Source: Methanomassiliicoccus sp. (lineage in GTDB: Archaea > Thermoplasmatota > Thermoplasmata > Methanomassiliicoccales > Methanomassiliicoccaceae). Taken from it: a stretch of DNA of 64,000 nucleotides. Positions 4,433 to 27,144 of this stretch are shown here, in pieces. Position 1 is the stretch's first letter, and each line of letters opens with the position of its first letter. The position numbers and the translations under genes are program-made. The stretch lies in assembly GCA_018262895.1 (NCBI GenBank), contig JADFDJ010000001.1, positions 1-64,000 of the forward strand, in the 5' to 3' direction. The notes beneath the pieces are model-generated. The model made no database searches. It was not told the origin of the DNA and saw only the letters and a program-made list of their open reading frames with translations.

Positions 4433-4740
4433 GATCCATCGCCAAGGTTATTGACCCAAGGAAGCGTCGATAGAGGCTATTCCAGCAGCTACCGGTAACG
4501 TGACGGACCGTATAAAGGATGCTATCCAGTTCCATCAGGTACGGAACAGGGCCTCATCCGGCCATAACAAACAGAACTTAGATGCGGGCATGCCGTTTAA
4601 TGTATCTCGAGAGGGGTGGTGTCGATATGCTGAAGATCGACAATGAAGGCGTTTTCGCGTCCACGAACGCTGGAGCCTGCTGACCCCGAGCAGGGCGGGG
4701 TAAGGTCCGCGAGGTCCTGGGTCCTTAGTACCGCGCAGAC
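4433..4740. other. Intergenic stretch with an 18-codon mini-ORF and a hairpin
   Basis: No full gene is visible. On the plus strand an ATG at 4627, preceded by the purine-rich GAGGGGTGG, opens an 18-residue frame that ends at TGA 4681-4683. CCTGCT (4676-4681) and AGCAGG (4689-4694) can pair as a hairpin overlapping that stop. A T-rich TTTAATGTA lies about 35 bp upstream of the ATG. It may be a very short peptide or the remnant of a gene start; I cannot distinguish these. Confidence 0.3.
4509..4518 (-). promoter_or_regulatory. Putative TATA box for the receiver-PAS-kinase gene
   Basis: Read on the minus strand this is CCTTTATACG, a fair archaeal TATA box. A transcription start about 27 bp downstream would lie near 4487, giving a leader of about 55 nt before the ATG at 4432. 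The box is nearly symmetric, so it could also serve the plus strand. Confidence 0.35.
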
Positions 4741-5652
4741 CTAATCGCCAACGTCCACCCTGCTGGAATCCGTGGACTGCATGGCCTTAAGGCCGTCCTC
4801 GAAGGACATCATTCGGATATCGAGCTCCGCCTCCACCTTCTGCGAGCTGAGGCAAAGGTATCTACCGCGCCTCGCGATGAGGTCAGAATCGTCCACACTG
4901 GCCCGCCGGCACAATGATGAGGGAAGGTCGAACACCTCGGCCACCTTGAGGCCCATCTCATAACGGTCGAGGCAGTCGGCCCCGGCCACGTGGTAGATGC
5001 CCTGGCCCTCCTTGTCCAGCAGCTTGAGCAGGACCTTAGCGCAGTGGGGCGCGTAAGTGGGGCAGGTCCTCCTGTCCTCAAAGAGGTTGACCATCTCCCC
5101 CGCCCTCAGCCGGGACAGGGTCCAGGTGACGAAGTTCTCCTTGTCGATGAGGCGGTTCCAACCGTAAAGCAGGGAAATGCGGGCGACGATATTGCGCTGG
5201 TCCGCATCCAGGGTGATCCTCTCCGCCTCCAGCTTGGTCTGGGCATATATGCTGAGGGGATCGGGGGTGTCGAACTCGTAGTACGGCTCCCTCTTCTGAC
5301 CGTTGAACACCGCATCCGTGGAGATGTACAGGAGCTTGATGTCATTGAGCTTGCAGGCCGCGGCCACGTTCAGCGTGCCCTCGGCGTTGACCTCCCATGC
5401 CTCCTGAGGATTGGTCTCGCAGCGATCGAGGTCCGTGATACCGGCAGCCAGGATGACCGCCTCCGGCCGCACGGACCTAAGGATCTCGCTGACCTCGCCC
5501 TCGTTCCTGACGTCCATGTGGACCAGGGTCCTCGTCCCTATCTTGGCATCGTTGTCGTGATAGGTCGCAGTGACCTCCCACCCTCGCTGGTACGCTTCCA
5601 GCACCAGGTATTGGCCCAGCAGGCCGGTCCCGCCGATTATAAGCAGCCTCAT
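4741..5652 (-). CDS. RmlD-like extended SDR, NAD(P)-dependent sugar-nucleotide reductase
   Basis: 303 residues of the extended short-chain dehydrogenase family, closest in style to dTDP-4-dehydrorhamnose reductase (RmlD/RfbD). The Rossmann motif is GGTGLLG at residues 7-13. A DVRNEGEV region and ILAAGITDLDRCE follow, then the STDAVF catalytic Ser/Thr strand and YAQTK (YxxxK). RmlD enzymes reduce the 4-keto group of dTDP-6-deoxy-4-ketohexoses. No other rml genes are nearby, so the substrate is uncertain, and the MAT2B-like branch of the family is an alternative. A TATA-like AATTAAAC at 5677-5684 lies about 28 bp before the ATG, which suggests a leaderless mRNA. Confidence 0.75.
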   Translation of the reverse strand: MRLLIIGGTGLLGQYLVLEAYQRGWEVTATYHDNDAKIGTRTLVHMDVRNEGEVSEILRSVRPEAVILAAGITDLDRCETNPQEAWEVNAEGTLNVAAACKLNDIKLLYISTDAVFNGQKREPYYEFDTPDPLSIYAQTKLEAERITLDADQRNIVARISLLYGWNRLIDKENFVTWTLSRLRAGEMVNLFEDRRTCPTYAPHCAKVLLKLLDKEGQGIYHVAGADCLDRYEMGLKVAEVFDLPSSLCRRASVDDSDLIARRGRYLCLSSQKVEAELDIRMMSFEDGLKAMQSTDSSRVDVGD

Positions 5653-12069: not shown

Positions 12070-12193
12070 TCCAGGCCCCCATTCTCCCGTTGGCATCGGA
12101 TGCCGTTCACTTTTCCCCCAGGACCTCTGCCATTTTTTTCTCTCCTTCGTTGAGAGGATACCTTGAAGTTAGGTGAGCGTTCATTCACCGCAG

Positions 12194-13204
12194 ATGCGGG
12201 ACCGTCTATTGGCTGCTCTTGATCGGCAGGGGGTGGACCGCCCTCCCTGCGTCAGCTCCGGCCAGACGGCCATTTTGGAGCTCCAGAGGGCGGTGGGCGC
12301 TCTCTGGCCCCAGGCCCACCAGGATGCCGAGCTTATGGCGCGGTTGGCGATGGCCGCGGTGGAGATGGGGGGACAGGAGGGAGCAAGGGTCCCCTTCGAG
12401 ACCACGGTGGACGCCTCCGCGTTCGGGGCAGGGGTAGCCATGGGAGGCCCGACCAAGCATCCCTATGTCAGCTGGCATCCTCTCGCCGACCATGAGAAGC
12501 TGGACGTGGCGCAACTGCCGGACCCGCGCAGGGACGGCCGCTCCCCGGTGGTCCTGGAGGCGGTCCGGAAATTGAGTGGCGGCCAGGTACCGGTGCTGTG
12601 CGCGGTGACCGCGCCCTTCACCCTGACCTGCATGCTGCGGGGGGAGCGGGAGACGATGATGGACCTGATCGTCGATCCCACCTACATCCACAACGTCATG
12701 GCATTGGCCGAGAAGTTCTCCCTGTCATTCGTGGAGGCGGCGGTGGAGGAGGGAGCGGACGTTATCGTGGTGGAGGACACCTGGGCGAGCGGGGAGATCC
12801 TGTCATCGCAGCAGTATGAGGGGTTCGCGCTTCCGGGAGAGCGGGCGTTGACCTCGAAGGTCCGGGAGCTGGGCGCGCGGTCCATCCTGCAGCTCTGCGG
12901 CCATCCCATGCTCAACCTGCCGCTGATGGCCAAGTGCGGCGCGAACGGTGTATCGGTCCATCAGATGGTCGACCTCAAGGAGGCGAGGGCCGTGCTGGGC
13001 GATGGCCTCGCACTGGTGGGTAGCATAGATCCCAAGGACATGGTGCTGCAGTCGCCGGAGAGGATCATGGAGCTAAGCAAGAAGTGCATGGACGGAGGTA
13101 TCGATATACTGTCCCCGGCCTGCGGCCTGGACCCCACCGCCTCCCTGCGGAACCTGCAGGCCATGGCCGAGGCCGCCAAGAGCTTCCGGCCGGGGGAGGG
13201 TTAA
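12194..13204 (+). CDS. MtaA/MtbA-family methylcobamide:CoM methyltransferase homologue with altered zinc site
   Basis: About 336 residues of the uroporphyrinogen decarboxylase-like fold (MtaA/CmuA group). In methanogens MtaA/MtbA move a methyl group from a corrinoid protein to coenzyme M using a zinc held by an HxC pair and a distal Cys. Here the region reads ILQLCGHP, so the His is replaced by Gln (Q233). C235 and the distal Cys in LSPACGLDP (C310) are kept, as is the EDTWASGE stretch. I start at ATG 12194 because MRDRLLAALDRQGVDRP aligns with family starts; a GTG at 12173 is also possible. No corrinoid protein or MtaB/MttB-like partner is adjacent. It may be a methyltransferase with another acceptor or a non-canonical metal site. 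Confidence 0.75.
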   Translation: MRDRLLAALDRQGVDRPPCVSSGQTAILELQRAVGALWPQAHQDAELMARLAMAAVEMGGQEGARVPFETTVDASAFGAGVAMGGPTKHPYVSWHPLADHEKLDVAQLPDPRRDGRSPVVLEAVRKLSGGQVPVLCAVTAPFTLTCMLRGERETMMDLIVDPTYIHNVMALAEKFSLSFVEAAVEEGADVIVVEDTWASGEILSSQQYEGFALPGERALTSKVRELGARSILQLCGHPMLNLPLMAKCGANGVSVHQMVDLKEARAVLGDGLALVGSIDPKDMVLQSPERIMELSKKCMDGGIDILSPACGLDPTASLRNLQAMAEAAKSFRPGEG

Positions 13205-15280: not shown

Positions 15281-15387
15281 CGGCGATCGCTCCACTATCT
15301 GGTCAGAGAAACAATTCAATCTTTTTTAAAACGTATACCATAATTTCTCGTCGCGAATGTTCAGCCTCATAGGTGGTGGTGCCGGTC

Positions 15388-15720
15388 ATGACTTCGAAAG
15401 TTAAGGTCAACATGTTCCCGTGCGAGAACACCTCGCTCATCGAAGTGAGCAAGAACGACGATGGGGACTTCGAGCTCAAGATCACGAGCACCTGCCACAA
15501 GGCCGTGAGGTTCGTGGAGGGCCTTGGCCCGCTCACCATCTTCGACCTAACCGACAAGGCGAACAGCAAGGTCTTTCGAAACTTCATCGATTCTGAGATG
15601 AGCGCCAACTGCCTTCTCCTGCCAGGGGTCATGACCGCGGCGTGGGTGGAGGCGGGCATGATCGCCCGGTCGATGACCAGAAAGAAGATACCTCTGAACA
15701 TCGAGTTCGTCGACGAGTGA
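15388..15720 (+). CDS. Small conserved three-cysteine archaeal protein, function unknown
   Basis: 110 residues. ATG 15388 is preceded by AGGTGGTG; an in-frame GTG at 15373 would add five residues. The order of elements is VKVNMFPCENTS, LKITSTCHKAV and SANCLLLPGVMTAAWVEAG. It resembles a family of small methanogen proteins (DUF6951-like) in which three Cys are spaced the same way. The Cys pattern suggests metal or cluster binding but no reaction is known. It precedes the ArsP-like permease by about 100 bp on the same strand, with a separate promoter in between. Confidence 0.55.
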   Translation: MTSKVKVNMFPCENTSLIEVSKNDDGDFELKITSTCHKAVRFVEGLGPLTIFDLTDKANSKVFRNFIDSEMSANCLLLPGVMTAAWVEAGMIARSMTRKKIPLNIEFVDE

Positions 15721-15795: not shown

Positions 15796-15811
15796 TTCAA
15801 AATTAATTGAA
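15796..15811. promoter_or_regulatory. Putative ArsR operator TTCAA-N6-TTGAA upstream of the permease
   Basis: TTCAAAATTAATTGAA carries 5-bp inverted half-sites spaced by six bases, 10 bp before ATG 15822. The same half-sites and spacing occur in front of acr3 (17974-17989). An arsR gene lies between the two target genes. ArsR proteins bind such inverted repeats and release on As(III)/Sb(III) binding. The pairing of this site with this ArsR is inferred. Confidence 0.6.
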
Positions 15812-15821
15812 ATGTATCCCC

Positions 15822-16898
15822 ATGGCCGATATCCTGCTTGATCCTCTGCTGAGCGGGCTCAACAGCCTGCTGGACTATCTGTCCCAGCACGTGCTCACCT
15901 GCCTCATCCCCGCTTTCTTCATAGCTGGGGCCATCGCCGCCTTCATCAAGAAGGATGCCATCCTCAGGTACTTCGGACCGAAGACCAAGAAGTACATCTC
16001 CTACCCCGTGGCGGCCGTCTCCGGCACCGTGCTGGCGGTGTGCAGCTGCACCATTCTGCCCCTGTTCGCCGGCATATACAAGAAAGGTAGCGGCCTTGGA
16101 CCGGCGGCCACGTTCCTGTTCTCGGGACCTGCCATCAACGTCCTGGCCATCGTGTACACCGCCCAGGTGCTTGGATACGACATCGGGCTGGCCCGGGCGG
16201 TCACCGCCGTCCTCCTGTCCATGGTGATCGGCCTGTGCATGTCCGTCGTCTTCCGCAAGGATGAGGAAAGACGGGCGTCGGAGGGGAGCGACGTGAAGAT
16301 GCCTTCCATGGGCTCAGTTCAGGAGGACAGGCCCAGGTGGGTGGTGCCTTCGTTCTTCATCCTCCTCATCGCCATCCTGCTCATCGGCTCTTCGAAATTA
16401 GACTGGGTGCCCAAGCTCGCCCTCGTCTACGTCCTGACCCTGGCAGTAGCCGTCATCCTCATCTACTTCTTCTATAAGGACGAGGTGACGGAGTGGGGCA
16501 TGGAGACCTGGGATCTCACGAAAAAGATCTTTCCCATACTCATCGCCGGTACCTTCGTGGTCGGGATCATCGCCTACTTCATCCCTGCGGAGACGTTCCG
16601 TCCGTACCTGGGCGGCAACTCCCTGCCCTCCACCTTCCTTGCCTCCATTATCGGGGGGCTGCTGTACATGCCCACCCTGCTTGAGGTCCCCATAATCGGC
16701 ACGACCTTCGGTTACTCCACGGGGGTGATGGGGGGAGGTCCGGCACTGGCCCTGCTGCTGACCGGCCCATCGCTCAGCCTGCCGTCGATCGTGGTCCTGT
16801 CCCGCCTAATGGGTGCGAAGAAGACTATGGTTTACATCCTGCTGGTGGTGGCCTTCTCCACCATCGTCTCGTTCATTTACGGCCAGCTGTTCGGGTGA
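15822..16898 (+). CDS. ArsP-like membrane permease (PF03773/DUF318)
   Basis: 358 residues with about eight to nine membrane helices. The sequence has the family hallmark AVCSCTILPLFAGIYKKG (C74, C76) and a second-half GGLLYMPTLLEVPIIG block. Characterised ArsP proteins export trivalent organoarsenicals using a Cys pair; many other permeases in this family have no known substrate. I choose ATG 15822; the frame also opens at a TTG inside the putative operator. A small thioredoxin-like gene follows about 250 bp downstream and ArsR and Acr3 lie next to it, supporting a role in export of arsenic or a similar metalloid. Confidence 0.8.
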   Translation: MADILLDPLLSGLNSLLDYLSQHVLTCLIPAFFIAGAIAAFIKKDAILRYFGPKTKKYISYPVAAVSGTVLAVCSCTILPLFAGIYKKGSGLGPAATFLFSGPAINVLAIVYTAQVLGYDIGLARAVTAVLLSMVIGLCMSVVFRKDEERRASEGSDVKMPSMGSVQEDRPRWVVPSFFILLIAILLIGSSKLDWVPKLALVYVLTLAVAVILIYFFYKDEVTEWGMETWDLTKKIFPILIAGTFVVGIIAYFIPAETFRPYLGGNSLPSTFLASIIGGLLYMPTLLEVPIIGTTFGYSTGVMGGGPALALLLTGPSLSLPSIVVLSRLMGAKKTMVYILLVVAFSTIVSFIYGQLFG

Positions 16899-17152: not shown

Positions 17153-17398
17153 ATGGCAACTAGGATAGAGGTTCTGGGAACCGGGTGCGCGAAGTGCAAG
17201 AGGCTGCTCAAGAACGCTGAGGAAGCGGTAAAGGAGCTGGGGCTGAACATCGAGGTCGCCAAGATCGAGGACCTTCATGAGATCGCCCGCAGGGGCGTCA
17301 TGATGACCCCTGGCCTGGTCATCGACGGAGAGGTCGTGGCCGTAGGCCGGGTCCCCGGTGTCGATGAGATCAAGAAATTGCTGTCTGGCGGGAAGTAG
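17153..17398 (+). CDS. Small redox thioredoxin-like protein (Thioredoxin_3 family)
   Basis: 81 residues, the size of the small archaeal thioredoxins of the MTH895/TM0996 type (PF13192). The active site is GTGCAKCKRL (C12, C15). MMTPGLVIDGEVVAVGRVP holds the cis-Pro, and the helix KKLL closes the fold. A strong ribosome-binding site, AGGAGGAAA, precedes ATG 17153. These proteins commonly sit next to PF03773 permeases. It probably keeps the permease Cys pair or the metalloid cargo reduced; that is an inference from context. It is convergent with arsR, ending 45 bp from it. Confidence 0.85.
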   Translation: MATRIEVLGTGCAKCKRLLKNAEEAVKELGLNIEVAKIEDLHEIARRGVMMTPGLVIDGEVVAVGRVPGVDEIKKLLSGGK

Positions 17399-17443: not shown

Positions 17444-17836
17444 TCACTCCCGAGCGCGGGCGAGGCGGTCCACGACGGAGAGGCCCAGCTCGCTGAGCAT
17501 GTAGATGCGCCACTTCTTGCGCGAGGACCATGTCACCAGCTTGGCCTCCTCCAGGACGCTGAGGTGGTACGATAGCTTGGAGTCTGAGAGCGAAGTGATC
17601 TCCTTGAGAATGCAGGGGCACAGGTCGGCGATCTGCAGGGCGTGAAGTATCTGCAGGCGAATGGGGTCGGACAAGGATTGGAACAGCTTGGCCTCCTCGG
17701 TAACGTCCTCTCGGCCAGGTACCCGGGATCTCAGCCCTTCCAGCCCGCCCAGCTTCTCCATCGTTGCTGCCATCTCGTCAGGAAGATTGAGGATATCGGT
17801 GCAGCACTCCTTGTCCGCGGAACATTTCGTTGACAT
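17444..17836 (-). CDS. arsR: ArsR-family metalloid-responsive repressor
   Basis: 130 residues. The winged helix-turn-helix spans about 45-120: LFQSLSDPIRLQILHAL, then DLCPCILKEI with C73 and C75 in the position of the classic arsenic-sensing ELCVC site, and the recognition region SKLSYHLSVLEEAKLV. An extra N-terminal tail has C5, C11 and C12, which could give a third ligand as in other ArsR branches. It lies between the permease/thioredoxin genes and acr3 and is divergent from acr3. The repressor is likely to act on the two TTCAA-N6-TTGAA sites and perhaps on its own promoter. Confidence 0.88.
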   Translation of the reverse strand: MSTKCSADKECCTDILNLPDEMAATMEKLGGLEGLRSRVPGREDVTEEAKLFQSLSDPIRLQILHALQIADLCPCILKEITSLSDSKLSYHLSVLEEAKLVTWSSRKKWRIYMLSELGLSVVDRLARARE

Positions 17837-17973: not shown

Positions 17974-17989
17974 TTCAATAATTATTGAA
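17974..17989. promoter_or_regulatory. Putative ArsR operator, perfect 16-bp palindrome before acr3
   Basis: TTCAATAATTATTGAA is a perfect palindrome of the TTCAA-N6-TTGAA form. It lies between the acr3 TATA box and start codon, in the divergent arsR-acr3 region. Its position over the expected transcription start fits repression. Confidence 0.65.
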
Positions 17990-18023
17990 ATAACATTTCA
18001 CCGTATAAATAAGGATGTGCTGG

Positions 18024-19145
18024 ATGACCGGACGGCAAGGCGGCGATGAAGGGGCCGAGGGCGACAAGAAGAAGCTATCCTTCCTTAACAAGTACCTGAC
18101 CGTCTGGATCTTCGCTGCCATGGGCCTTGGGGTCGCGCTGGGCGTCTTCGTTCCTTGGTTCGCCGATTCCCTGAACAGCCTGAGCGTCGGGACGACATCC
18201 ATCCCCATCGCCATCGGCCTCATACTCATGATGTACCCGCCCCTGGCCAAGGTGAGGTACGAGGAGATCGGAAAGATAACCAAGCAGCCCGAGGCCAAGA
18301 GGATGTTCGGCACCTCCCTGGCGCTTAACTACATCGTCGGCCCGCTGCTGATGTTCGCCCTGGCGTGGATATTCCTCCCCGACGAGCCCCTGTACCGCAT
18401 CGGCCTCATCCTCACGGGGGTCGCCAGGTGCATCGCCATGGTGCTGGTATGGAACCAGCTGGCCGAGGGCGACACCGAGTATGCGGCCATCCTCGTCGCC
18501 TTGAACTCCATCTTCCAGATAGTGCTGTACGCCTTCTACGCGTACTTCCTCATCGCTGTCCTCTCTGACGTGGTCTCACCGGGATCAGGAGTGCCGGTGG
18601 AGATCAGCATCGTGTCCGTGGCCATCAGCGTCATCATCTACCTGGGTATCCCGTTCTTCGGCGGCATCCTGACGAGGTACCTGCTCCGCCCCCGCATCGG
18701 CGCTGACAGGTACGACAACAGGTTCATCCCCATCGCCGGAAAGGTCGGCCTGCTGGCACTGCTGTTCACCATCGTGGTCATGTTCTCCCTTCGCGCCCAA
18801 TCCATCGTGGACACGCCCCTGGACGTAGTAAGGATCGCCATACCGCTGGTGATCTACTTCGTCATCATGTTCCTGCTGTCGTTCTGGCTGTCCATGAGGT
18901 TCGCGTTCGACTACCCTCATGCGGCCACGCAGTCGTTCACCGCGGCCAGCAACAACTTCGAGCTGGCGATCGCGGTGGCCGTGGGAGTGTTCGGAATAGG
19001 CTCCGCGGTGGCGTTCGCCACGGTCATCGGCCCCCTGGTGGAGGTCCCGGCGCTCATCTCGCTGGTCAACCTGTCCCTGTACTTCAAGCGCAGATACTAC
19101 GACAGCAGCGGCCGTCACATCGGCAAGAGAACGGAGGCGGTGTGA
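18024..19145 (+). CDS. acr3: Acr3-type arsenite efflux permease
   Basis: 373 residues with about ten membrane helices. The sequence contains the conserved Cys segment GVARCIAMVLVWNQLA and the late helix SNNFELAIAVAVGVFG with its conserved Glu, both hallmarks of ACR3 of the bile-acid/arsenite carrier superfamily. It exports As(III), and often Sb(III), across the membrane. ATG 18024 is chosen because AAGGA lies at good spacing before it; ATG 18015 in the same frame is the alternative. It is divergent from arsR and followed at once (ATG 19147) by a CMD protein, forming an operon with the next three genes. Confidence 0.88.
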   Translation: MTGRQGGDEGAEGDKKKLSFLNKYLTVWIFAAMGLGVALGVFVPWFADSLNSLSVGTTSIPIAIGLILMMYPPLAKVRYEEIGKITKQPEAKRMFGTSLALNYIVGPLLMFALAWIFLPDEPLYRIGLILTGVARCIAMVLVWNQLAEGDTEYAAILVALNSIFQIVLYAFYAYFLIAVLSDVVSPGSGVPVEISIVSVAISVIIYLGIPFFGGILTRYLLRPRIGADRYDNRFIPIAGKVGLLALLFTIVVMFSLRAQSIVDTPLDVVRIAIPLVIYFVIMFLLSFWLSMRFAFDYPHAATQSFTAASNNFELAIAVAVGVFGIGSAVAFATVIGPLVEVPALISLVNLSLYFKRRYYDSSGRHIGKRTEAV

Positions 19146-19146
19146 T

Positions 19147-19524
19147 ATGGATAGCAAGACCAAGGAGCTGGTGGCCCTCGCCTCAAGCGTCGCCGCTCAT
19201 TGCCAGCCATGCTTCAGGTTCCACCTCGACAAGGCCCGCAAGCTGGGCATCAGCGAAGAGGACATGCGGTCAGCGATCGATCTGGCAGAGCGGATCAGTA
19301 CCGTAGGGGACCAGCGCATGGCCGAGTTCGTTGACCAAGCGATGAAGGAAGGACAAACGGAGGAAAAAAATGACCGTAGAGGAGATCGACCTATACTGGC
19401 TGAAGCCACAGGACATTATGAACTACCTGCCCACGGACAAGACCCCGGGGTGCGGGGCCAAGGACTGGGAGGAGTTCGCCCAGATGCTCGTAGACAAGAA
19501 AGTGAAGGCCGCGGACTGCGATAA
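19147..19524 (+). CDS. CMD/AhpD-like CxxC protein with a probable frameshifted C-terminus
   Basis: The first 74 or so residues form a small CMD-family protein with an AhpD-like redox site, HCQPCFRFHLDKARKLG (C19, C22, His five residues on). The rest of the frame overlaps the next gene by 155 bp and looks like out-of-frame translation. The change occurs at a run of seven A (19364-19370). One additional A would give EEKK and a TGA overlapping the next ATG as ATGA, the normal operon arrangement. So the real product is probably about 75 residues, and the run is either a sequencing indel or a slippage site. A thiol-redox role in arsenic handling is likely but unproven. Confidence 0.7.
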   Translation: MDSKTKELVALASSVAAHCQPCFRFHLDKARKLGISEEDMRSAIDLAERISTVGDQRMAEFVDQAMKEGQTEEKNDRRGDRPILAEATGHYELPAHGQDPGVRGQGLGGVRPDARRQESEGRGLR

Positions 19525-19984
19525 GATCGACAAGGCCATGGCGGAGGCGATCGACGGAGCGCTATCCGTGGACATCAGGCTGCCGGAGAGCGACCCTTTG
19601 CAGCAGAAGGTGCCGGAGCCCCTGTTCGAGTACAACTCCCCGGACGAGAGCTCTCCCATAATCGTCACCAGTAACTCCGTGATCACCCATCAGATACTGG
19701 GTCTCATATTGAAAGCGGCCAAGGTAAGGGCGTTCGTCATCCCCGTGGACGCCCAGGGGCTCACATATGATAATGCGGTAGTGGGCAACTTCTTCTCGGG
19801 CATGCAGGTCATGAAGGCCATCACCGGTAGCGGGATATCGACCAAGACCACCAGCCACAAGATGATCATCGGAGGCCTGGGGAAGGATATGAGGTCTTCG
19901 ATCGAGCGCATCACCAAGTGGAGCGTGGAGGTCGGTCCGGTCAGCGGCTTCGAGCTCCCGATGTACCTGGTCGCCAACCGTTAA
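19370..19984 (+). CDS. Protein related to the corrinoid Fe-S subunit of CODH/ACS, in an arsenic operon
   Basis: 204 residues, no membrane segment. Residues about 14-52 resemble the small 4Fe-4S domain of CODH/ACS gamma subunits (CdhE/AcsC): YLPTDKTPGCGAKDWEEF...KAADC. Only two of the four expected Cys (C28, C50) remain. Residues about 95-204 (SPIIVTSNSVITHQILGL, FFSGMQVMKAITGSG, GFELPMYLVANR) resemble the C-terminal corrinoid-binding region of those subunits (CdhD, PF03599). It lacks the HgcA cap-helix motif NVWCAAGK and the HgcA membrane domain. Its place after acr3 and a CxxC protein suggests a metalloid or methyl/cobamide link. Family assignment is from visual resemblance and needs a profile search. 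Confidence 0.55.
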   Translation: MTVEEIDLYWLKPQDIMNYLPTDKTPGCGAKDWEEFAQMLVDKKVKAADCDKIDKAMAEAIDGALSVDIRLPESDPLQQKVPEPLFEYNSPDESSPIIVTSNSVITHQILGLILKAAKVRAFVIPVDAQGLTYDNAVVGNFFSGMQVMKAITGSGISTKTTSHKMIIGGLGKDMRSSIERITKWSVEVGPVSGFELPMYLVANR

Positions 19985-20017
19985 GGACGGCGGAAAAGCT
20001 AAAGGAGGATGTCGCAG

Positions 20018-20302
20018 GTGAGCCCTGTCGCCGTGAAGAGGGAGCAGAGGCACTACCCACGCCCAGCGTGCGTGATAGGTGATGTAAGGAGGCATTGCGC
20101 CCTCTGCGAGGCGGAGGTCGAGCGTCTGCAGCGCACCTGCTCCCAGTGCTACGCACCGCTGCGCAAGGAGTGCCCTCACTGCCATTACTGGGTGGAGATG
20201 GACGCGGCCTACTGTGTATCGTGCCGCCATCCCTTCCCCATGCCGCCCCCTCGAAAGGCGGTCATCAAGATGTGGCATCCTGACGGGGACGGGGCGGTCT
20301 GA
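20018..20302 (+). CDS. Small multi-zinc-ribbon protein
   Basis: About 94 residues. Three or four Cys pairs form consecutive zinc ribbons (CALCEAE, CSQCYAPL, CPHCHYWV, CVSCRHP). I choose GTG 20018 because AAAGGAGG (20001-20008) directly abuts the alternative ATG 20009 and leaves no spacing for it. It ends the acr3 operon, about 33 bp after the corrinoid-protein-like gene. Such proteins usually bind nucleic acid or protein partners; metal or metalloid binding by the Cys is possible. No specific function can be assigned. Confidence 0.6.
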   Translation: MSPVAVKREQRHYPRPACVIGDVRRHCALCEAEVERLQRTCSQCYAPLRKECPHCHYWVEMDAAYCVSCRHPFPMPPPRKAVIKMWHPDGDGAV

Positions 20303-20625
20303 TCTCTCCGTCCGATTAGCTGGACAGGCAGTGGCGGAGGCAAGCTTTCCGATGAAGGACCGACCTTGAAGGTGTATGTAGGAGCCCCGTTCACACACCC
20401 GATGTCCCTCAATATCAAAAATTGAAAATGATAATGCATTATCGCTAATCATTCTAGCATGATAGAACAAAATAATAATCTACGCTGGCTTCATTGAAAT
20501 AATTAAAAATAAGGTCAAAATATTGTTATTAATATACATATGTTGAATATATATAAATTATTGATAATTACCGCACCACCTATATATGCGCTCCCTCCGT
20601 CCTAAAAGGGCTAAAGGTGGTTCGC
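20303..20625. other. AT-rich promoter region of the giant beta-helix protein
   Basis: From about 20410 to 20580 the sequence drops to very low GC with many A/T tracts, in sharp contrast to its surroundings. No gene is visible. It ends in the TATA box at 20581 and a ribosome-binding site AAAGGTGG at 20611-20618. Regulatory protein binding is likely given its length. Confidence 0.5.
20581..20588 (+). promoter_or_regulatory. TATA box of the beta-helix surface protein gene
   Basis: TATATATG is a strong archaeal TATA box. Transcription about 27 bp later would begin near 20611, giving a short leader that just includes the AAAGGTGG ribosome-binding site before ATG 20626. Confidence 0.6.
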
Positions 20626-23600
20626 ATGTCGAGGCTGAAGAGATCTAGCGTTGTAAAGGGAACGATAGCAATGGCAGCAGTTGTCCTCATCGGCCTTCTG
20701 CTGGTAGGGACGTTGGGAGCCCTCTCCAACAGTTCAGACCGCATGGATGCGGGGGCGCCCATCAAGACCGGCATCAATCCCGGGTCACCGACCCAGATCA
20801 CCTCTCCGTTCCGGATCAACAGCGATGCCGAGCTCACCGCCAAGGCCTCCGCCATGGGCTGGGTCGGCGATGGTACGGCCAGCAACCCGTACATAATCTA
20901 CAATGTCTACATCAACAACAACTACTACGCTCATTCCACATACGGCATCTTCATCGGTAACACCACGAAGTCCTTCGTAATCTACCAGTGCTACATCTAC
21001 CGGACCACCGACGCCTCCTCCAACCCCTACACCACGGGCGCGATCAACCTCTACCATGTAAGCAACGCCCAGATACTCTACACTTACGTTAGCAACGCCT
21101 ACAATGGCATCATCCTCAACGGATGCTCCAACGTCAGTCTGTACGCGGGGAGCTGCTACGATGTCGTCAATGTCGGCGTCAAGATCGACAGCTCCAACAG
21201 TATCACGGTGGCCACTCGCAACATCAACTACTGCCGGTCCTACGGCATCTACCTTACACAATCCCAGGATGTGCTCCTGGACCATAACAGCATATACTCG
21301 TCCAATTCCGGGGATGGAATATACCTGTCCAACTCCGACAACAACCGTATCGAGAACAACAGTGTGGGCTCCTCGCAGCACGCTGGGATCGAGCTCTCGA
21401 GCTCGGATGGCAATGTCGTCCGCAGCAACACCATCAGCGGCAACTACGGGATCGTTGTGGAGTCATCGACCAGGGACGTGCTCATTTACAACACCCTCAG
21501 CTACGGTTCAAACAGGGGCGTGCACCTGATCTCGTCCGACAACATCACCGTCGAGGGCAACACCGCTAACAGCTGGAACGTGGGTATGTACTCGCAGTCC
21601 TCCTCGGACATCCTGTTCCGTAACAACACGGTCAACACCTGCTCGTACGGCATTTACCTATACACCTCCAGCACCCACAACATCCTGGTCGAGAACCGTG
21701 TTAACAACTGCGGCATCGGAGGTATAACCGTGGAAGCGTCGATGTACAACACCTTCTACAACAACACCCTTACCGGAACCTCCTTCCTTATCCAGTACAG
21801 CTCCTCTGATGTCTATGCCGGCCAAGACATCTCGACGAACAACACCGTGAACGGTCGGCCGGTCTACTACTACGCCAACGTCAACATGGAGAACGCCTCC
21901 GTGCCCCTGGACGCGGGCCAGGTGATCCTGGCCTCAGTGCAGTACCTCAACGTGGCCGGACTGAACCTCAGCGACCAGAACGCGGGACTGCTGATGGGCT
22001 ACAGCTCCCACATCCGGGTGGCGGACAACCTCTTCTCGAGAGGGAACCCCCAGGGCGTGAGGGCGGTCGTTTGCACCGATAGCGTGTTCCACAACAACGC
22101 CATAGCCGACTGCAACATCGGCCTGTCCCTCTATCAGTCATCCAATAACGTGATCGACAGCAATATTGTGGACAGCTGCTCCGAAGGCATCGTGCTGGAG
22201 TCCTGCACAAGCAACGTGATCAGCGCCAACGTGGTGTCTGAATGCTCCGAGAGCGGCATCGATCTCAGCAGCTCCAACAACAACGCCCTTTTCGAGAACG
22301 TCCTGGCGTCCTGCTCCATAAACCTCGAGGGCTCGGAGTTCTACTTCAACTCGCAGGTCATATCGACGAACAACACCGTGAACGGTCGGCCGGTCTACTA
22401 CTACGCCAACGTCAACATGGAGAACGCCTCCGTGCCCCTGGGGGCTGGACAGGTCATACTCGCAAGCGTCCATTATGCCCATGTGACCGGACAGAACCTC
22501 AGCGACCAGAACGTGGGCCTGCTCATTGGGTACAGTTCCCACATCGTTGTCGACGGCAACACGATCGATAATGGGTCCCCCCACGGGGCCCGTCTGTTCC
22601 ATTGCAGTGACTGCCTTATCGAAGGGAACGGCCTCGAGGGGGATAACCTCGGGATCATCTTGGACGCCTCCTCGGATGTCGCCCTTCGCAGCAACGAACT
22701 GACCGCCTGCGGCACCGGCATCTACATCCACTACTGCGATGGCATTGAGATATCGGACAGCGAGGTGAACGCCGACACCGGCATCAACCTCTACTCTTCG
22801 ACAGCGGTCATCGTTGCCTCGAACCAGCTACTAGACTGTGGGGCCGGAGTGACCATCTACTCCTCCACCGCGACCATCGAGGATAATCTCTTCGAGGACA
22901 TCACCACGAACGGCATCAGCGTGCAGAGCTCCAACGGCGGGATCCATGTGCTGTACAACCTGATGAACGAGACCAACGCCGGCATAAGGATCTGGGACTC
23001 CGATGGGAACGAGGTGAGGGGCAACGACATCAGCAACTCCACCTACGGTATCTATGTGGATCAGTCTGCCAACAACATCGTTACCGGCAATAACGTGTCC
23101 TCCTCCTCCTTTGGGGTAATGGGCAATTACTGCACTGGAACGATCGGCAGCAACAACATAACGGGCTGTGGTGAGGGGGTGCGTGTCGACAACTGCAGTC
23201 CCCTGGTCATCGAGGGCAGCAATATAGTTGGATGCACCTTAGGAATAAACACCTATAACAGCGGCGGGGTGATCGTCCAGGACAACGCCATCACCGACTG
23301 CGGTACCGGGGTCCGGATCTATTACACCAACAGCGCTGTTGTCAGGAACAACGACATCGATGGCGGCGACAACGGCATCTATGTGGCGGGCAACTCCTTG
23401 TGCAATGTGAGCGCCAACAATGTCATAGGCTGCTCCCAGGCCGGGATATTCCTTTACAGCACCGAGAACAACGTGCTGAGCGGCAACGCCCTGACCGCCT
23501 GCGCCATAAACCTCGACATGGGCCAGAACACCTACAAGACCCAGACCATCTACGCATCCAACACCGTGAACGGCAAGCCCGTCTACTACTACAAGGTGAT

Positions 23601-26600
23601 GGACATGACCGGGACCACCGTTCCCTCGGATGCGGGGGAGGTCATACTGGGCAACGTCACCAACGCGCACATCAGCGGCCTGGCCATCGACAACACGACC
23701 TTGGCGGTCCTGTCCGGTTACTCGGACCATGTGACCATCGATGGCTCCACGTTCGACAACCTGACCTCCATGGCCGTGAGCCTCCAGAGCAGCCACTACT
23801 TCACCGTCAGTCATTGTGAGTTCACCTCCTGCGAGAAGGGGGTCAATCTTAACAACGCCAACGACGACACGGTGGACAACTGCACCTTCAAAGGCTGCAC
23901 GGAAGGCGTCAGGATCGTCGGCGGCAACAACGACCGCCTGCTCTACAACACCATCTCCGCCTGCGACACTGGAATGTACCTTTATGGTCAGAACGCCCGT
24001 GCGGGATACAACACCATATCCCAGTGCAGGGTGGGCATTGATGTCCGCTATACCTCCATCGATGTTGACCACAACACCCTGTCCGCCTGCAGCCAGGATG
24101 GCATACTGTTCTACTCATGCAGCTCCGGCGAGGCCCTTGCCAACGTCATCTCCGGATGCCCTGATGGCATCCACCTGTACCAGAGCAGCTACAGCGTGGT
24201 GCAGTGGAACGAGATAGGGTCCTGCGGAGTGGGCATCAACGCCACCCAGACCTACGGCGAGAGCCTGCATGATAACCTCATCAACGGTGCTGGGACCGTG
24301 GGGATACTGCTCGACCATGTGGAGGAATGCACGGTGGAGGCCAACGAGGTCTCGGGATGCCCCCAGGGACTTACGGTAAGGAACAGCATGAACGTGGGGG
24401 TGTCCGGCAACAATGTCGAGGGGTGCTACGACGGGGTTGTGGTGCTGGTAAGCGAGAGCGTCCAGATGACCTGGAACCGCGTCAACGGGTCCTCCGACAT
24501 GGGGGTGAAGGTCTTCTCCTCTGAACAGGTCATCATCAGCTACAACACCTTCTCCAACAGCACGTCCTACGGCCTGTGGTTCAACACCTCCCTGGACAAC
24601 GAGGTTTACCTCAACCGCTTCATCGACAACAACGGTGCCGGTGAGACCTACGACCCTGAGCATGCTCAGGCCTACGACGACTGCTATATCTATGTGGACA
24701 TCTTCGGGCCGGAGATTTACCTCTACGAGCCTTACGAGGGCGAGGAGGTCTACGGGAGCTTCTATGCCTACTGGGATGCCTATGATGAGGCGGGGGTGGA
24801 CCACAGCGAGCTCCGCATCGACGACGGGGATTGGATAACCCCCGAGGGAGAGGATTCGTTCTTCTACTACCCCCTGGAACTGAGCTCTGGGGAACATATG
24901 ATCGAGGTCAGGGCGTGGGACGGCCTGGGCAACAGCGCCTCGGTGTTCGCCAACTTCACCGTCGAGGGTGGCCCAGATCACCCGCTGTTCGCCTCGAACG
25001 CCCCATCTCTCTCATCGCCGGCAGAACCGGAGGACCCGGTCATAGGAAGCACGACCGTGTGGAGCTCGGGACCGGGGAACCAGTGGAGCGACCTGCCGAG
25101 CCCTGACGCGGACCGTGACGGCTACATAGACGTTCCCTACCAGATCGCCGGTGGCAACTCCACCGACGGGCACCCCCTGTCGCAGGAGATCGCCAACCCT
25201 GACTCCCTGCACGCCGCAGCGGAACCGTTCAGCGTGACCCTGACCTGGAGCGGGTACAACTATTCCCTCACGGGCTCCATCGACGGCTACCACCTCACCA
25301 GGAACTCCACCACCGGAGGCAACTTCACCGTGGACCTGGGGGCGTCCAACACCTCCTACAGCGACACCACGGTGGTGCCCTACCATGTGTACACCTACAC
25401 CCTGGTGGCGTTCAGCGGCGATGTGCTCGGGGGCGAGGGGCAGGTCGAGGTAATGACCCCCGATCCCTTCCCGCCCAGCATCGTCATCGATTCTCCCTCC
25501 CACAGCGTCCTGACCAACGCCTCCACCATGGAGGTGACCTGGACAGGCACGGACGAGTATTCGGGCATAGCGGGCTACTGGGTCAAGCTCAATGACGGTG
25601 AATGGGCCAGCGTGGGCATGGAGGTAAGCTACAACTTCACGGGCCTCTCCGAGGGCAACAACACCCTGGCCGTCAAGGCGGTGGCCAATGCCGGAAACGT
25701 CAACGAGACCTCGGTAATGGTGACCAGGGACTCCACCGTGCCCACTCTCAGCATCACCGCGCCCGATATCGACTCGGTCACCGGCATCGACAGCGTGACG
25801 ACCACGTGGAACGCGATCGACTACACCGGCGTGGAGGGATACCAGTACCGCCTTGACGGCGGGAACTGGTCCGTCCTCAACGCCACCCCTGGAGCGACGT
25901 TCACAGGCCTGGCGTCAGGGGCCCATACCATCGACGTCCGCGCCATTGACAATGCCGGCAACGTGGCCGTGGCTACGGTAACGTTCACCGTTGACCGTAC
26001 GGTCCCCACGCTGAGCATCACCTCGCCCACCAACGGCACCTGGGTCAGCTCCCTGCTGGTAACTTGGCAGGGGTCGGACGACATCTCCGCCATATTCTAC
26101 TATGAGGTCAGCCTCGACGGCGGGGAGTGGATCAACGCGCTCTCGGCCACCCAGTACCTGTTCGAGGGCGCCGCTGAAGGGCTTCATGCCGTCCAGGTGA
26201 GGGCGTACGACCAGGCGGGCAACAACGTAACCGCCACCGTGCAGATGTACCTGGACACCGTGGTCCCGAGCCTCACCATAGAGACACCTTCGGAGGGCGA
26301 CCTCCTGAACGGAGGGAACGCCCAGGGCTCTTGGAACGGGATGGATGAGGACTCCGGTTTGGCCAACTACAGCATGAGGGTCGACGGCGGGGAGTGGACC
26401 GAGGTCCAATCCACCAACGACCTCGGGTCCCTGGCCGAGGGGCAGCACCTGCTGGAGGTCAGGGCCTTTGACATCGCCGGGAACTTCGTGATCAAGATGG
26501 TCAGCTTCACCCTGGACCCCGAGGCCCCGGTCATCACCGAGCGCGTGCCCGAGGGTGAGCATGTGGACCCTGACGCGGACATCACCGTGACCTTCTCCGA

Positions 26601-27144
26601 GGACATGAACGTCAGCTCGGTGAACCTGACGGTGGAGGGCGTGGAAGGGATCATAAGCTGGTCCGGCAACACCATGACCTTCGATCCGTCCACCAGCCTG
26701 AGGTACGCCACCGCCTACACGGTCACGGTGAGCGGCATGGACCTTGCCGGAAACGAAGTGAGCATGAGCTGGACCTTCACCACCACCAACCGCGGCGCCC
26801 TCTCCGGAAGGATCGTGGACACCAACGGGGCCCCGGTGGCGAACGCCCTGGTCACCCTGGACACGGGCGAGACCGCCCTGACCGATGAGAACGGCCTTTT
26901 CTACATCGTGACCGAGGCCGGGGAGCACAGCATAACCGTGACCAAGGACGGCTACCAGGCAACGTTCTCCTCCGCACTCCTGGGGGCCGGGGAGACGCTG
27001 TCCATGAGCGCCATCACCTTGACGCCCCAGGCGACCAGCTCCTACGATTGGTGGCCCATCATACTGGCGGTGGCCGCCACCGCCTCCTTCTTCATGCTCC
27101 TGTTCGCAACCAGCAGGAACGATAAGGACCGTGGCCGTAAATAG
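20626..27144 (+). CDS. Giant surface protein: NosD-like beta-helix repeats plus Ig-like domains
   Basis: 2172 residues. ATG 20626 follows AAAGGTGG; a GTG at 20617 is part of that site. Residues 1-40 hold a signal anchor. Residues about 70-1340 are right-handed parallel beta-helix (NosD/PbH1) repeats such as NRIENNSVGSSQHAGIELSSS, in four blocks separated by insertions reading NNTVNGRPVYYYANVNMEN. Residues about 1355-1960 are Ig-like domains, several opening with PTLSITAP. An SbsA-like Ig domain (VTFSEDMNVSS) and a carboxypeptidase-regulatory-like domain (GRIVDTNGAPVANALVTL) follow. One membrane helix and a basic tail anchor it. Beta-helix proteins of this kind bind or modify polysaccharides; no catalytic residues are evident. 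Likely an adhesin or envelope component. Confidence 0.85.
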   Translation: MSRLKRSSVVKGTIAMAAVVLIGLLLVGTLGALSNSSDRMDAGAPIKTGINPGSPTQITSPFRINSDAELTAKASAMGWVGDGTASNPYIIYNVYINNNYYAHSTYGIFIGNTTKSFVIYQCYIYRTTDASSNPYTTGAINLYHVSNAQILYTYVSNAYNGIILNGCSNVSLYAGSCYDVVNVGVKIDSSNSITVATRNINYCRSYGIYLTQSQDVLLDHNSIYSSNSGDGIYLSNSDNNRIENNSVGSSQHAGIELSSSDGNVVRSNTISGNYGIVVESSTRDVLIYNTLSYGSNRGVHLISSDNITVEGNTANSWNVGMYSQSSSDILFRNNTVNTCSYGIYLYTSSTHNILVENRVNNCGIGGITVEASMYNTFYNNTLTGTSFLIQYSSSDVYAGQDISTNNTVNGRPVYYYANVNMENASVPLDAGQVILASVQYLNVAGLNLSDQNAGLLMGYSSHIRVADNLFSRGNPQGVRAVVCTDSVFHNNAIADCNIGLSLYQSSNNVIDSNIVDSCSEGIVLESCTSNVISANVVSECSESGIDLSSSNNNALFENVLASCSINLEGSEFYFNSQVISTNNTVNGRPVYYYANVNMENASVPLGAGQVILASVHYAHVTGQNLSDQNVGLLIGYSSHIVVDGNTIDNGSPHGARLFHCSDCLIEGNGLEGDNLGIILDASSDVALRSNELTACGTGIYIHYCDGIEISDSEVNADTGINLYSSTAVIVASNQLLDCGAGVTIYSSTATIEDNLFEDITTNGISVQSSNGGIHVLYNLMNETNAGIRIWDSDGNEVRGNDISNSTYGIYVDQSANNIVTGNNVSSSSFGVMGNYCTGTIGSNNITGCGEGVRVDNCSPLVIEGSNIVGCTLGINTYNSGGVIVQDNAITDCGTGVRIYYTNSAVVRNNDIDGGDNGIYVAGNSLCNVSANNVIGCSQAGIFLYSTENNVLSGNALTACAINLDMGQNTYKTQTIYASNTVNGKPVYYYKVMDMTGTTVPSDAGEVILGNVTNAHISGLAIDNTTLAVLSGYSDHVTIDGSTFDNLTSMAVSLQSSHYFTVSHCEFTSCEKGVNLNNANDDTVDNCTFKGCTEGVRIVGGNNDRLLYNTISACDTGMYLYGQNARAGYNTISQCRVGIDVRYTSIDVDHNTLSACSQDGILFYSCSSGEALANVISGCPDGIHLYQSSYSVVQWNEIGSCGVGINATQTYGESLHDNLINGAGTVGILLDHVEECTVEANEVSGCPQGLTVRNSMNVGVSGNNVEGCYDGVVVLVSESVQMTWNRVNGSSDMGVKVFSSEQVIISYNTFSNSTSYGLWFNTSLDNEVYLNRFIDNNGAGETYDPEHAQAYDDCYIYVDIFGPEIYLYEPYEGEEVYGSFYAYWDAYDEAGVDHSELRIDDGDWITPEGEDSFFYYPLELSSGEHMIEVRAWDGLGNSASVFANFTVEGGPDHPLFASNAPSLSSPAEPEDPVIGSTTVWSSGPGNQWSDLPSPDADRDGYIDVPYQIAGGNSTDGHPLSQEIANPDSLHAAAEPFSVTLTWSGYNYSLTGSIDGYHLTRNSTTGGNFTVDLGASNTSYSDTTVVPYHVYTYTLVAFSGDVLGGEGQVEVMTPDPFPPSIVIDSPSHSVLTNASTMEVTWTGTDEYSGIAGYWVKLNDGEWASVGMEVSYNFTGLSEGNNTLAVKAVANAGNVNETSVMVTRDSTVPTLSITAPDIDSVTGIDSVTTTWNAIDYTGVEGYQYRLDGGNWSVLNATPGATFTGLASGAHTIDVRAIDNAGNVAVATVTFTVDRTVPTLSITSPTNGTWVSSLLVTWQGSDDISAIFYYEVSLDGGEWINALSATQYLFEGAAEGLHAVQVRAYDQAGNNVTATVQMYLDTVVPSLTIETPSEGDLLNGGNAQGSWNGMDEDSGLANYSMRVDGGEWTEVQSTNDLGSLAEGQHLLEVRAFDIAGNFVIKMVSFTLDPEAPVITERVPEGEHVDPDADITVTFSEDMNVSSVNLTVEGVEGIISWSGNTMTFDPSTSLRYATAYTVTVSGMDLAGNEVSMSWTFTTTNRGALSGRIVDTNGAPVANALVTLDTGETALTDENGLFYIVTEAGEHSITVTKDGYQATFSSALLGAGETLSMSAITLTPQATSSYDWWPIILAVAATASFFMLLFATSRNDKDRGRK
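21832..21910 (+). repeat. 79-bp exact repeat, copy 1, inside the beta-helix gene
   Basis: Identical to 22363-22441. It encodes the insertion with VNGRPVYYYANVN. The flanking repeats are much more diverged, so this stretch was copied or converted recently. Confidence 0.9.
22363..22441 (+). repeat. 79-bp exact repeat, copy 2, inside the beta-helix gene
   Basis: Identical to 21832-21910. A third, diverged protein-level version (NTVNGKPVYYYKVMDM) lies near 23560-23610. Confidence 0.9.

Follow-up and report, generated by a model that had tools for sequence, protein, structure and literature searches.

A predicted corrinoid protein, trimmed from the CFeSP gamma subunit, encoded in an arsenic operon of Methanomassiliicoccus

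What is a relative of the gamma subunit of the CODH/ACS corrinoid Fe-S protein (CFeSP) doing in an arsenic operon? The question is raised by a 64,000-nucleotide stretch of DNA from a Methanomassiliicoccus sp. (hereafter the window), in which an ORF that we call F0 (19370..19984, + strand) encodes a 204 amino acid protein. The original prediction had described F0 as a CODH/ACS gamma-like protein encoded between an AhpD-like CxxC protein and a zinc ribbon protein behind acr3, and had raised the idea that the handling of metalloids includes a cobamide- or methyl-linked step. We computed the domain make-up of F0, its invariant threonines, the conservation of its operon and of an upstream palindrome, its two paralogue contexts, and the selection acting on it.

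Profile matches bore out this gene order, acr3-ahpD-F0-zinc ribbon, with F0 as the third gene of the operon. The first gene encodes the arsenite efflux transporter Acr3 (18015..19145, +; TIGR00832, 402 bits, cut-off 283), followed by the AhpD-like CxxC protein (19147..19524, +; PF02627, 4.7e-11), F0, and a double zinc ribbon protein (20009..20302, +; PF12773, 1.1e-7). Divergent from acr3 lies the gene for an ArsR repressor with a DLCPC motif (17444..17836, -; PF01022, and NF033788 over its cut-off). The locus further encodes a thioredoxin-like protein of the MTH895/ArsE type (17153..17398, +; TIGR00412, 107.8 bits, cut-off 62) and an ArsP-type permease (15807..16898, +; PF03773, 1.6e-76; the likely start is the in-frame ATG at 15822); ArsR, Acr3, the permease and the ArsE-type protein are all components shared with Acr3-type ars operons. 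An MtaA-family methylcobamide:CoM methyltransferase (12173..13204, +; NF004889, 291.8 bits, cut-off 244) is encoded outside the operon in this window. A DUF6951 protein (15373..15720, +; PF22263, 8.6e-13) recurs at at least seven acr3-linked F0 loci, which makes it a further candidate for an arsenic-response gene. Directly 3' of the operon, positions 20617-27144 encode a repeat-rich, surface-type protein of 2175 amino acids with parallel beta-helix-like repeats, and large proteins resembling it are found near F0 in several relatives.

The conserved part of the AhpD-like protein stops near position 19360, and the remainder is a read-through into F0 in another frame. The ahpD ORF overlaps F0 by 155 bases, adjoins a run of seven A residues, and lacks the stop codon that ends the AhpD of locus L029 at the F0 start, so that a frameshift or decay of the window gene is possible. 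In L029 itself, the CxxC motif of AhpD is changed to CxxS.

F0 is predicted to consist of a degenerate Fe-S domain (residues about 10-66) and a corrinoid domain (about 79-202). Of the two Pfam families suggested for checking the original prediction, PF03599 (CdhD) matched residues 79-192 above its cut-off (1.4e-13), and PF04060 gave no match in the window protein, consistent with the retention of only Cys28 and Cys50 among the four cluster ligands, the two that had been counted originally; PF04060 is matched by 12 of the 18 aligned F0 members. The closest NCBIfam model was the CFeSP gamma equivalog (8.6e-26), but the score of 90.8 bits falls far short of its cut-off (306). A profile of the F0 family matched CFeSP gamma in the PDB (2h9a) at residues 7-57 with its Fe-S domain (i-E 1.8e-5) and at residues 318-440 with its corrinoid domain (i-E 3.6e-18), leaving about 260 residues (58-317), the TIM barrel, without a counterpart. 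The suggested structure prediction gave a confident AlphaFold2 model (pLDDT 90.8, pTM 0.86; 18-sequence alignment), for which Foldseek returned, below 0.001, only CFeSP gamma chains (4djd_C, 2.0 Å over 131 columns) and an HgcA model (1.9e-5). F0 is a real protein under purifying selection: its dN/dS of 0.065 (against G003) is similar to that of acr3 (0.067), and 24 of 150 related genomes encode full-length homologues, two findings that together rule out a chance ORF or a pseudogene. On the profile and fold comparisons, we conclude that F0 is a predicted free-standing corrinoid protein trimmed from the CFeSP gamma subunit, without the TIM barrel.

F0 shares with CFeSP gamma (AcsC/CdhE), its best PDB match, the N-terminal Fe-S and C-terminal corrinoid domains. 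CFeSP gamma, however, has a TIM barrel, four cluster cysteines and Thr374, whereas the window F0 has no barrel, two cysteines and an Asn. CODH/ACS genes and the delta subunit, typical neighbours of CFeSP gamma, were not seen at the F0 locus, in agreement with the original prediction, and the same genome encodes a normal CFeSP gamma/CdhE (L002) on another contig (C22). With the barrel, the four cysteines and the CODH/ACS neighbourhood all missing, F0 as an ordinary CFeSP gamma subunit was ruled out. HgcA also shares the corrinoid domain, and it is under ArsR-type control in some bacteria (PMC10349881). HgcA differs from F0 in its cap-helix Cys within the N(V/I)WCAAGK motif, its C-terminal transmembrane domain and its partner HgcB. 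F0 scored 30.5 bits against the HgcA cut-off of 275 and has no membrane domain, no NVWCAAGK motif and no adjacent HgcB, so that it was rejected as an HgcA, as originally stated. A true HgcA is encoded elsewhere in the window's genome (L003, G000 contig C24, ORF 979-2001, -), with NVWCAAGK and a membrane domain and over the NF040863 cut-off; it is accompanied by an HgcB-like ferredoxin, and this organism is therefore a predicted mercury methylator.

The residues predicted to surround the cofactor support cobamide binding by F0. In the published model of HgcA, Thr60 and Thr66 touch the cofactor and Cys93 occupies the axial position (PMC7305189), and CFeSP Thr374 is found on the same side of the cofactor (PMC4934906). 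Aligned by motif, HgcA Thr60 and Thr66 correspond to F0 Thr100 and Thr106, which are invariant across F0 members (26 and 18 sequences), and the CFeSP Thr374 position corresponds to F0 Asn135 (profile alignment and counting from residue 312). At this axial position, where the window F0 reads GLTYDNA, all members have Asn or His: Asn in the window clade, in its four-Cys sisters and in the deltaproteobacterial F0; a second archaeal set has His. Cluster cysteines are lost in 13/13 members of the acr3-linked clade, and every other F0 member keeps all four, mta-linked copies included. Cys50 is the sole cluster cysteine common to all members, even those without a cluster, which would suit a protein that works without cobamide, as a thiol or protein-binding adaptor that would, for example, use Cys50 as its thiol to hand Acr3 the As(III) received from a thiol carrier. 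We consider such an adaptor improbable, as even the degenerate clade keeps the G-x-T-x-D motif and the threonines at the cofactor-contact positions, and a single cysteine makes a weak As(III) site. Taken with the domain make-up and the methyl-transfer contexts described below, the invariant threonines indicate that F0 is probably a true corrinoid protein, recruited from methyl-transfer metabolism into the arsenic response.

No F0 was found in Thermoplasmatota outside Methanomassiliicoccales, where the matches were full-length, CdhE-sized proteins only. Two peptide patterns, run against about 85,000 species genomes, identified 17 F0 loci, three of them bacterial; scans of this kind miss divergent members. 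A class-level search extended the bacterial set to six loci, all deltaproteobacterial. The count of neighbouring genes placed acr3 immediately upstream of F0 in 17 of the 26 archaeal (Methanomassiliicoccales) loci, with AhpD in between in about ten of the 17. In the window clade, the zinc ribbon gene lies 3' of F0 in 12 of 13 loci (at +473 to +526). DUF1638 comes after F0 and the zinc ribbon in five ars loci, and an MtaA homologue takes the place directly after this pair in L034; several acr3-F0 operons lack AhpD, several lack DUF1638 and several lack MtaA. Since DUF1638 is multi-copy in the order and present in 140/147 genomes, its mere presence carries no weight and only its position next to F0 counts.

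Between arsR and acr3 we identified the palindrome TTCAATAATTATTGAA (17974..17989), a putative ArsR operator expected by chance 0.03 times per window (at most three mismatches), and a second putative operator, TTCAAAATTAATTGAA (15796..15811), lies immediately before arsP. F0 is thus co-directional with acr3 behind an ArsR-type palindrome, as is a component of an ars operon. The form TTCAA-N6-TTGAA is found just before acr3 in all 16 testable acr3-linked F0 loci, covering both F0 types (in the seventeenth, L051, this region is cut by the contig end), and is absent from the nine archaeal F0 loci without that linkage. The 2.34-Mb genome holds only three such sites, two of which are the acr3 and arsP promoters of the window. 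The DLCPC motif is conserved among the ArsR proteins of acr3-linked loci and resembles the CxC motif at the As(III) site of characterized ArsR proteins; we infer that ArsR binds the palindrome. In the F0 tree, the acr3-linked copies comprise a 13-member clade (support 100/98) and four His-type members, and the supported branches require at least two changes of acr3 linkage. That most linked loci fall in the one clade would fit a merely inherited neighbourhood, in which F0 stands behind acr3 by chance and has no role with arsenic. We set this very improbable reading aside on account of the palindrome and of linkage in at least two parts of the tree; the tight operon spacing also speaks against it. 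Matching a corrinoid family and strongly associated with acr3, F0 thus neither belongs to an unrelated family nor lacks a link to metalloid genes, and the proposed cobamide- or methyl-linked step is better supported by its genomic context.

The arsenic-operon reading holds for the 17 acr3-linked loci and does not extend to the whole family, other copies of F0 being found at RamA, CobW and MtaABC loci; F0 is not exclusively an arsenic-operon protein. RamA (TIGR04270, 737 bits) and CobW are encoded beside F0 in L043, L044, L047 and L052, three of which also include MtaB and MtaC. All six bacterial loci (L095 of G493, L064, L065, L069, L096 and L097) open with F0-mtaA, and the four with enough sequence continue with mtaC, mtaB, an AmiS/UreI-like protein, a GTPase, an unknown 200 amino acid protein and RamA; a sensor kinase and an NtrC-type regulator precede these deltaproteobacterial operons. 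G036 and G048 each encode two F0 paralogues, one of the ars type and one of the mta type. MtaABC/RamA clusters thus encode paralogues of F0, and some ars copies have DUF1638 or an MtaA homologue; the MtaC-type corrinoid proteins belong to another family, and in the literature found F0 is not named as a component of MtaABC clusters.

These contexts raise the possibility that F0 loads, reduces or protects corrinoid methyltransferases, and that the ars copy is an arsenic-induced spare for when As(III) damages them. RamA and DUF1638 were linked to B12 reactivation by genetics (PMC5764234), and RamA-like and DUF1638 proteins serve this function (PMC5764234, PMC12478193); both the several non-ars copies, archaeal and deltaproteobacterial, beside RamA, the CobW GTPase and MtaABC and the DUF1638 genes after F0 in ars loci would fit it. 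The loss of cluster cysteines in the 13-member ars clade and their retention in mta-linked copies also agree with this proposal, under which the loss would render F0 arsenic-tolerant. Yet RamA was not found in the ars operons, the invariant cofactor-contact residues suit a cobamide carrier better than an accessory protein, and methanogens with acr3 but without F0 exist. We regard corrinoid maintenance as rather unlikely and rank it second.

Our first choice, to which we assign a probability of about 0.38, is that the ars-type F0 would take part in an anaerobic pathway that strips trivalent methylarsenicals of methyl groups and directs these to coenzyme M. Methanomassiliicoccus luminyensis CZDD1 demethylates DMAs(III), and no enzyme has been named for this activity; in coculture, 13C-DMAs is converted to 13CH4, and Methanosarcina mazei shows no demethylation (PMC10579292). 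This published activity supports the demethylation reading, as do the F0 neighbours DUF1638, MtaA and RamA/CobW/MtaABC, which constitute a methyl-transfer signature, and the combination of acr3 linkage in two parts of the tree, the palindrome and the ars/mta paralogue pairs. Slightly less probable still is the specific proposal of an O2-independent, arsenic-induced demethylation of trivalent methylarsenicals in which F0 accepts the methyl group on its corrinoid and methanogenesis consumes it, which would make this pathway the anaerobic equivalent of the C-As lyase ArsI. Against demethylation, the activity of CZDD1 is slow and partial (1-7%; PMC10579292) and could be explained by general methyltransferases; no dedicated arsenic-substrate methyltransferase (an MtaB analogue) is encoded in the acr3-F0 operon, AhpD, DUF1638 and MtaA are patchy among operons, and many Methanomassiliicoccales have acr3 without F0.

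Genome content bears on these readings within limits. Compared with genomes of the order that lack F0, those with F0 more often encode acr3 (21/24 versus 29/123) and hgcA (19/24 versus 13/123; 32/147 in the order), counts that are not phylogenetically independent and whose absences are affected by MAG incompleteness; given the co-occurrence with hgcA, lifestyle may explain part of the co-occurrence of F0. In L050, F0 lies near hgcA. ArsM is absent from 19/24 F0 genomes, including that of the window, which makes it unlikely that the organism processes its own ArsM product; the locus also differs from known ArsP/ArsI/ArsM methylarsenical handling in having a predicted corrinoid protein in the operon. 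A published survey reported no arsM in Methanomassiliicoccales (PMC7824343). In L048 (G023), F0 adjoins arsR and an ArsM-like methyltransferase gene (4448-5539, -).

The lack of ArsM in most F0 genomes would also suit the opposite direction of transfer, in which methyl-Co(III) F0 methylates As(III), SAM or another donor recharges it, and ArsP exports the product. HgcA, with the same corrinoid domain, methylates mercury with SAM as donor (PMC11588087), and an ArsP-type permease lies under the second copy of the palindrome. HgcA, however, needs its axial Cys, membrane domain and HgcB, whereas F0 lacks a membrane domain and carries Asn or His at the axial position, and the MtaA and DUF1638 neighbours point towards methyl uptake. 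As trivalent methylarsenicals exceed arsenite in toxicity, methylation by F0 would not be a simple detoxification. We therefore place this HgcA-like reading third and consider it quite unlikely.

For the preferred demethylation reading, the cobamide binding, arsenic substrate, transfer direction and partners that we infer for F0 would combine as follows. F0 probably served corrinoid methyl transfer first, as its copies beside MtaABC, RamA and CobW suggest, and in the tree its ArsR-controlled association with acr3 changed at least twice. As(III) or a methylarsenical would free ArsR. F0 would carry a base-off Co(I) cobamide, held reduced by activators of the RamA/DUF1638 type, and the Co(I) would accept a methyl group from DMAs(III) or MMAs(III), with the AhpD dithiol perhaps presenting the arsenical to it. 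An MtaA-family enzyme would then move the group from methyl-Co(III) to coenzyme M, on its way to methane, while inorganic As(III) would leave by Acr3 and undemethylated species by ArsP.

In the open-licence papers found, no corrinoid protein is reported in an ars operon, and F0 is a concrete candidate for the addition of methyl groups to arsenic, or their removal from it, in methanogens. DMAs causes straighthead disease of rice and is removed by Methanomassiliicoccus (PMC10579292), so that the methylarsenic-demethylating enzyme of methanogens is a question of practical weight, for which this locus provides a gene, a regulatory site and contrasting paralogues. F0 is also a minimal corrinoid protein in which Asn or His stands at the position of the CFeSP Thr and the HgcA Cys, and it thereby offers a natural series for relating axial ligation to methyl-transfer chemistry. 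Overall, F0 appears to be a portable corrinoid unit that the arsenic response has taken over from methyl-transfer metabolism.
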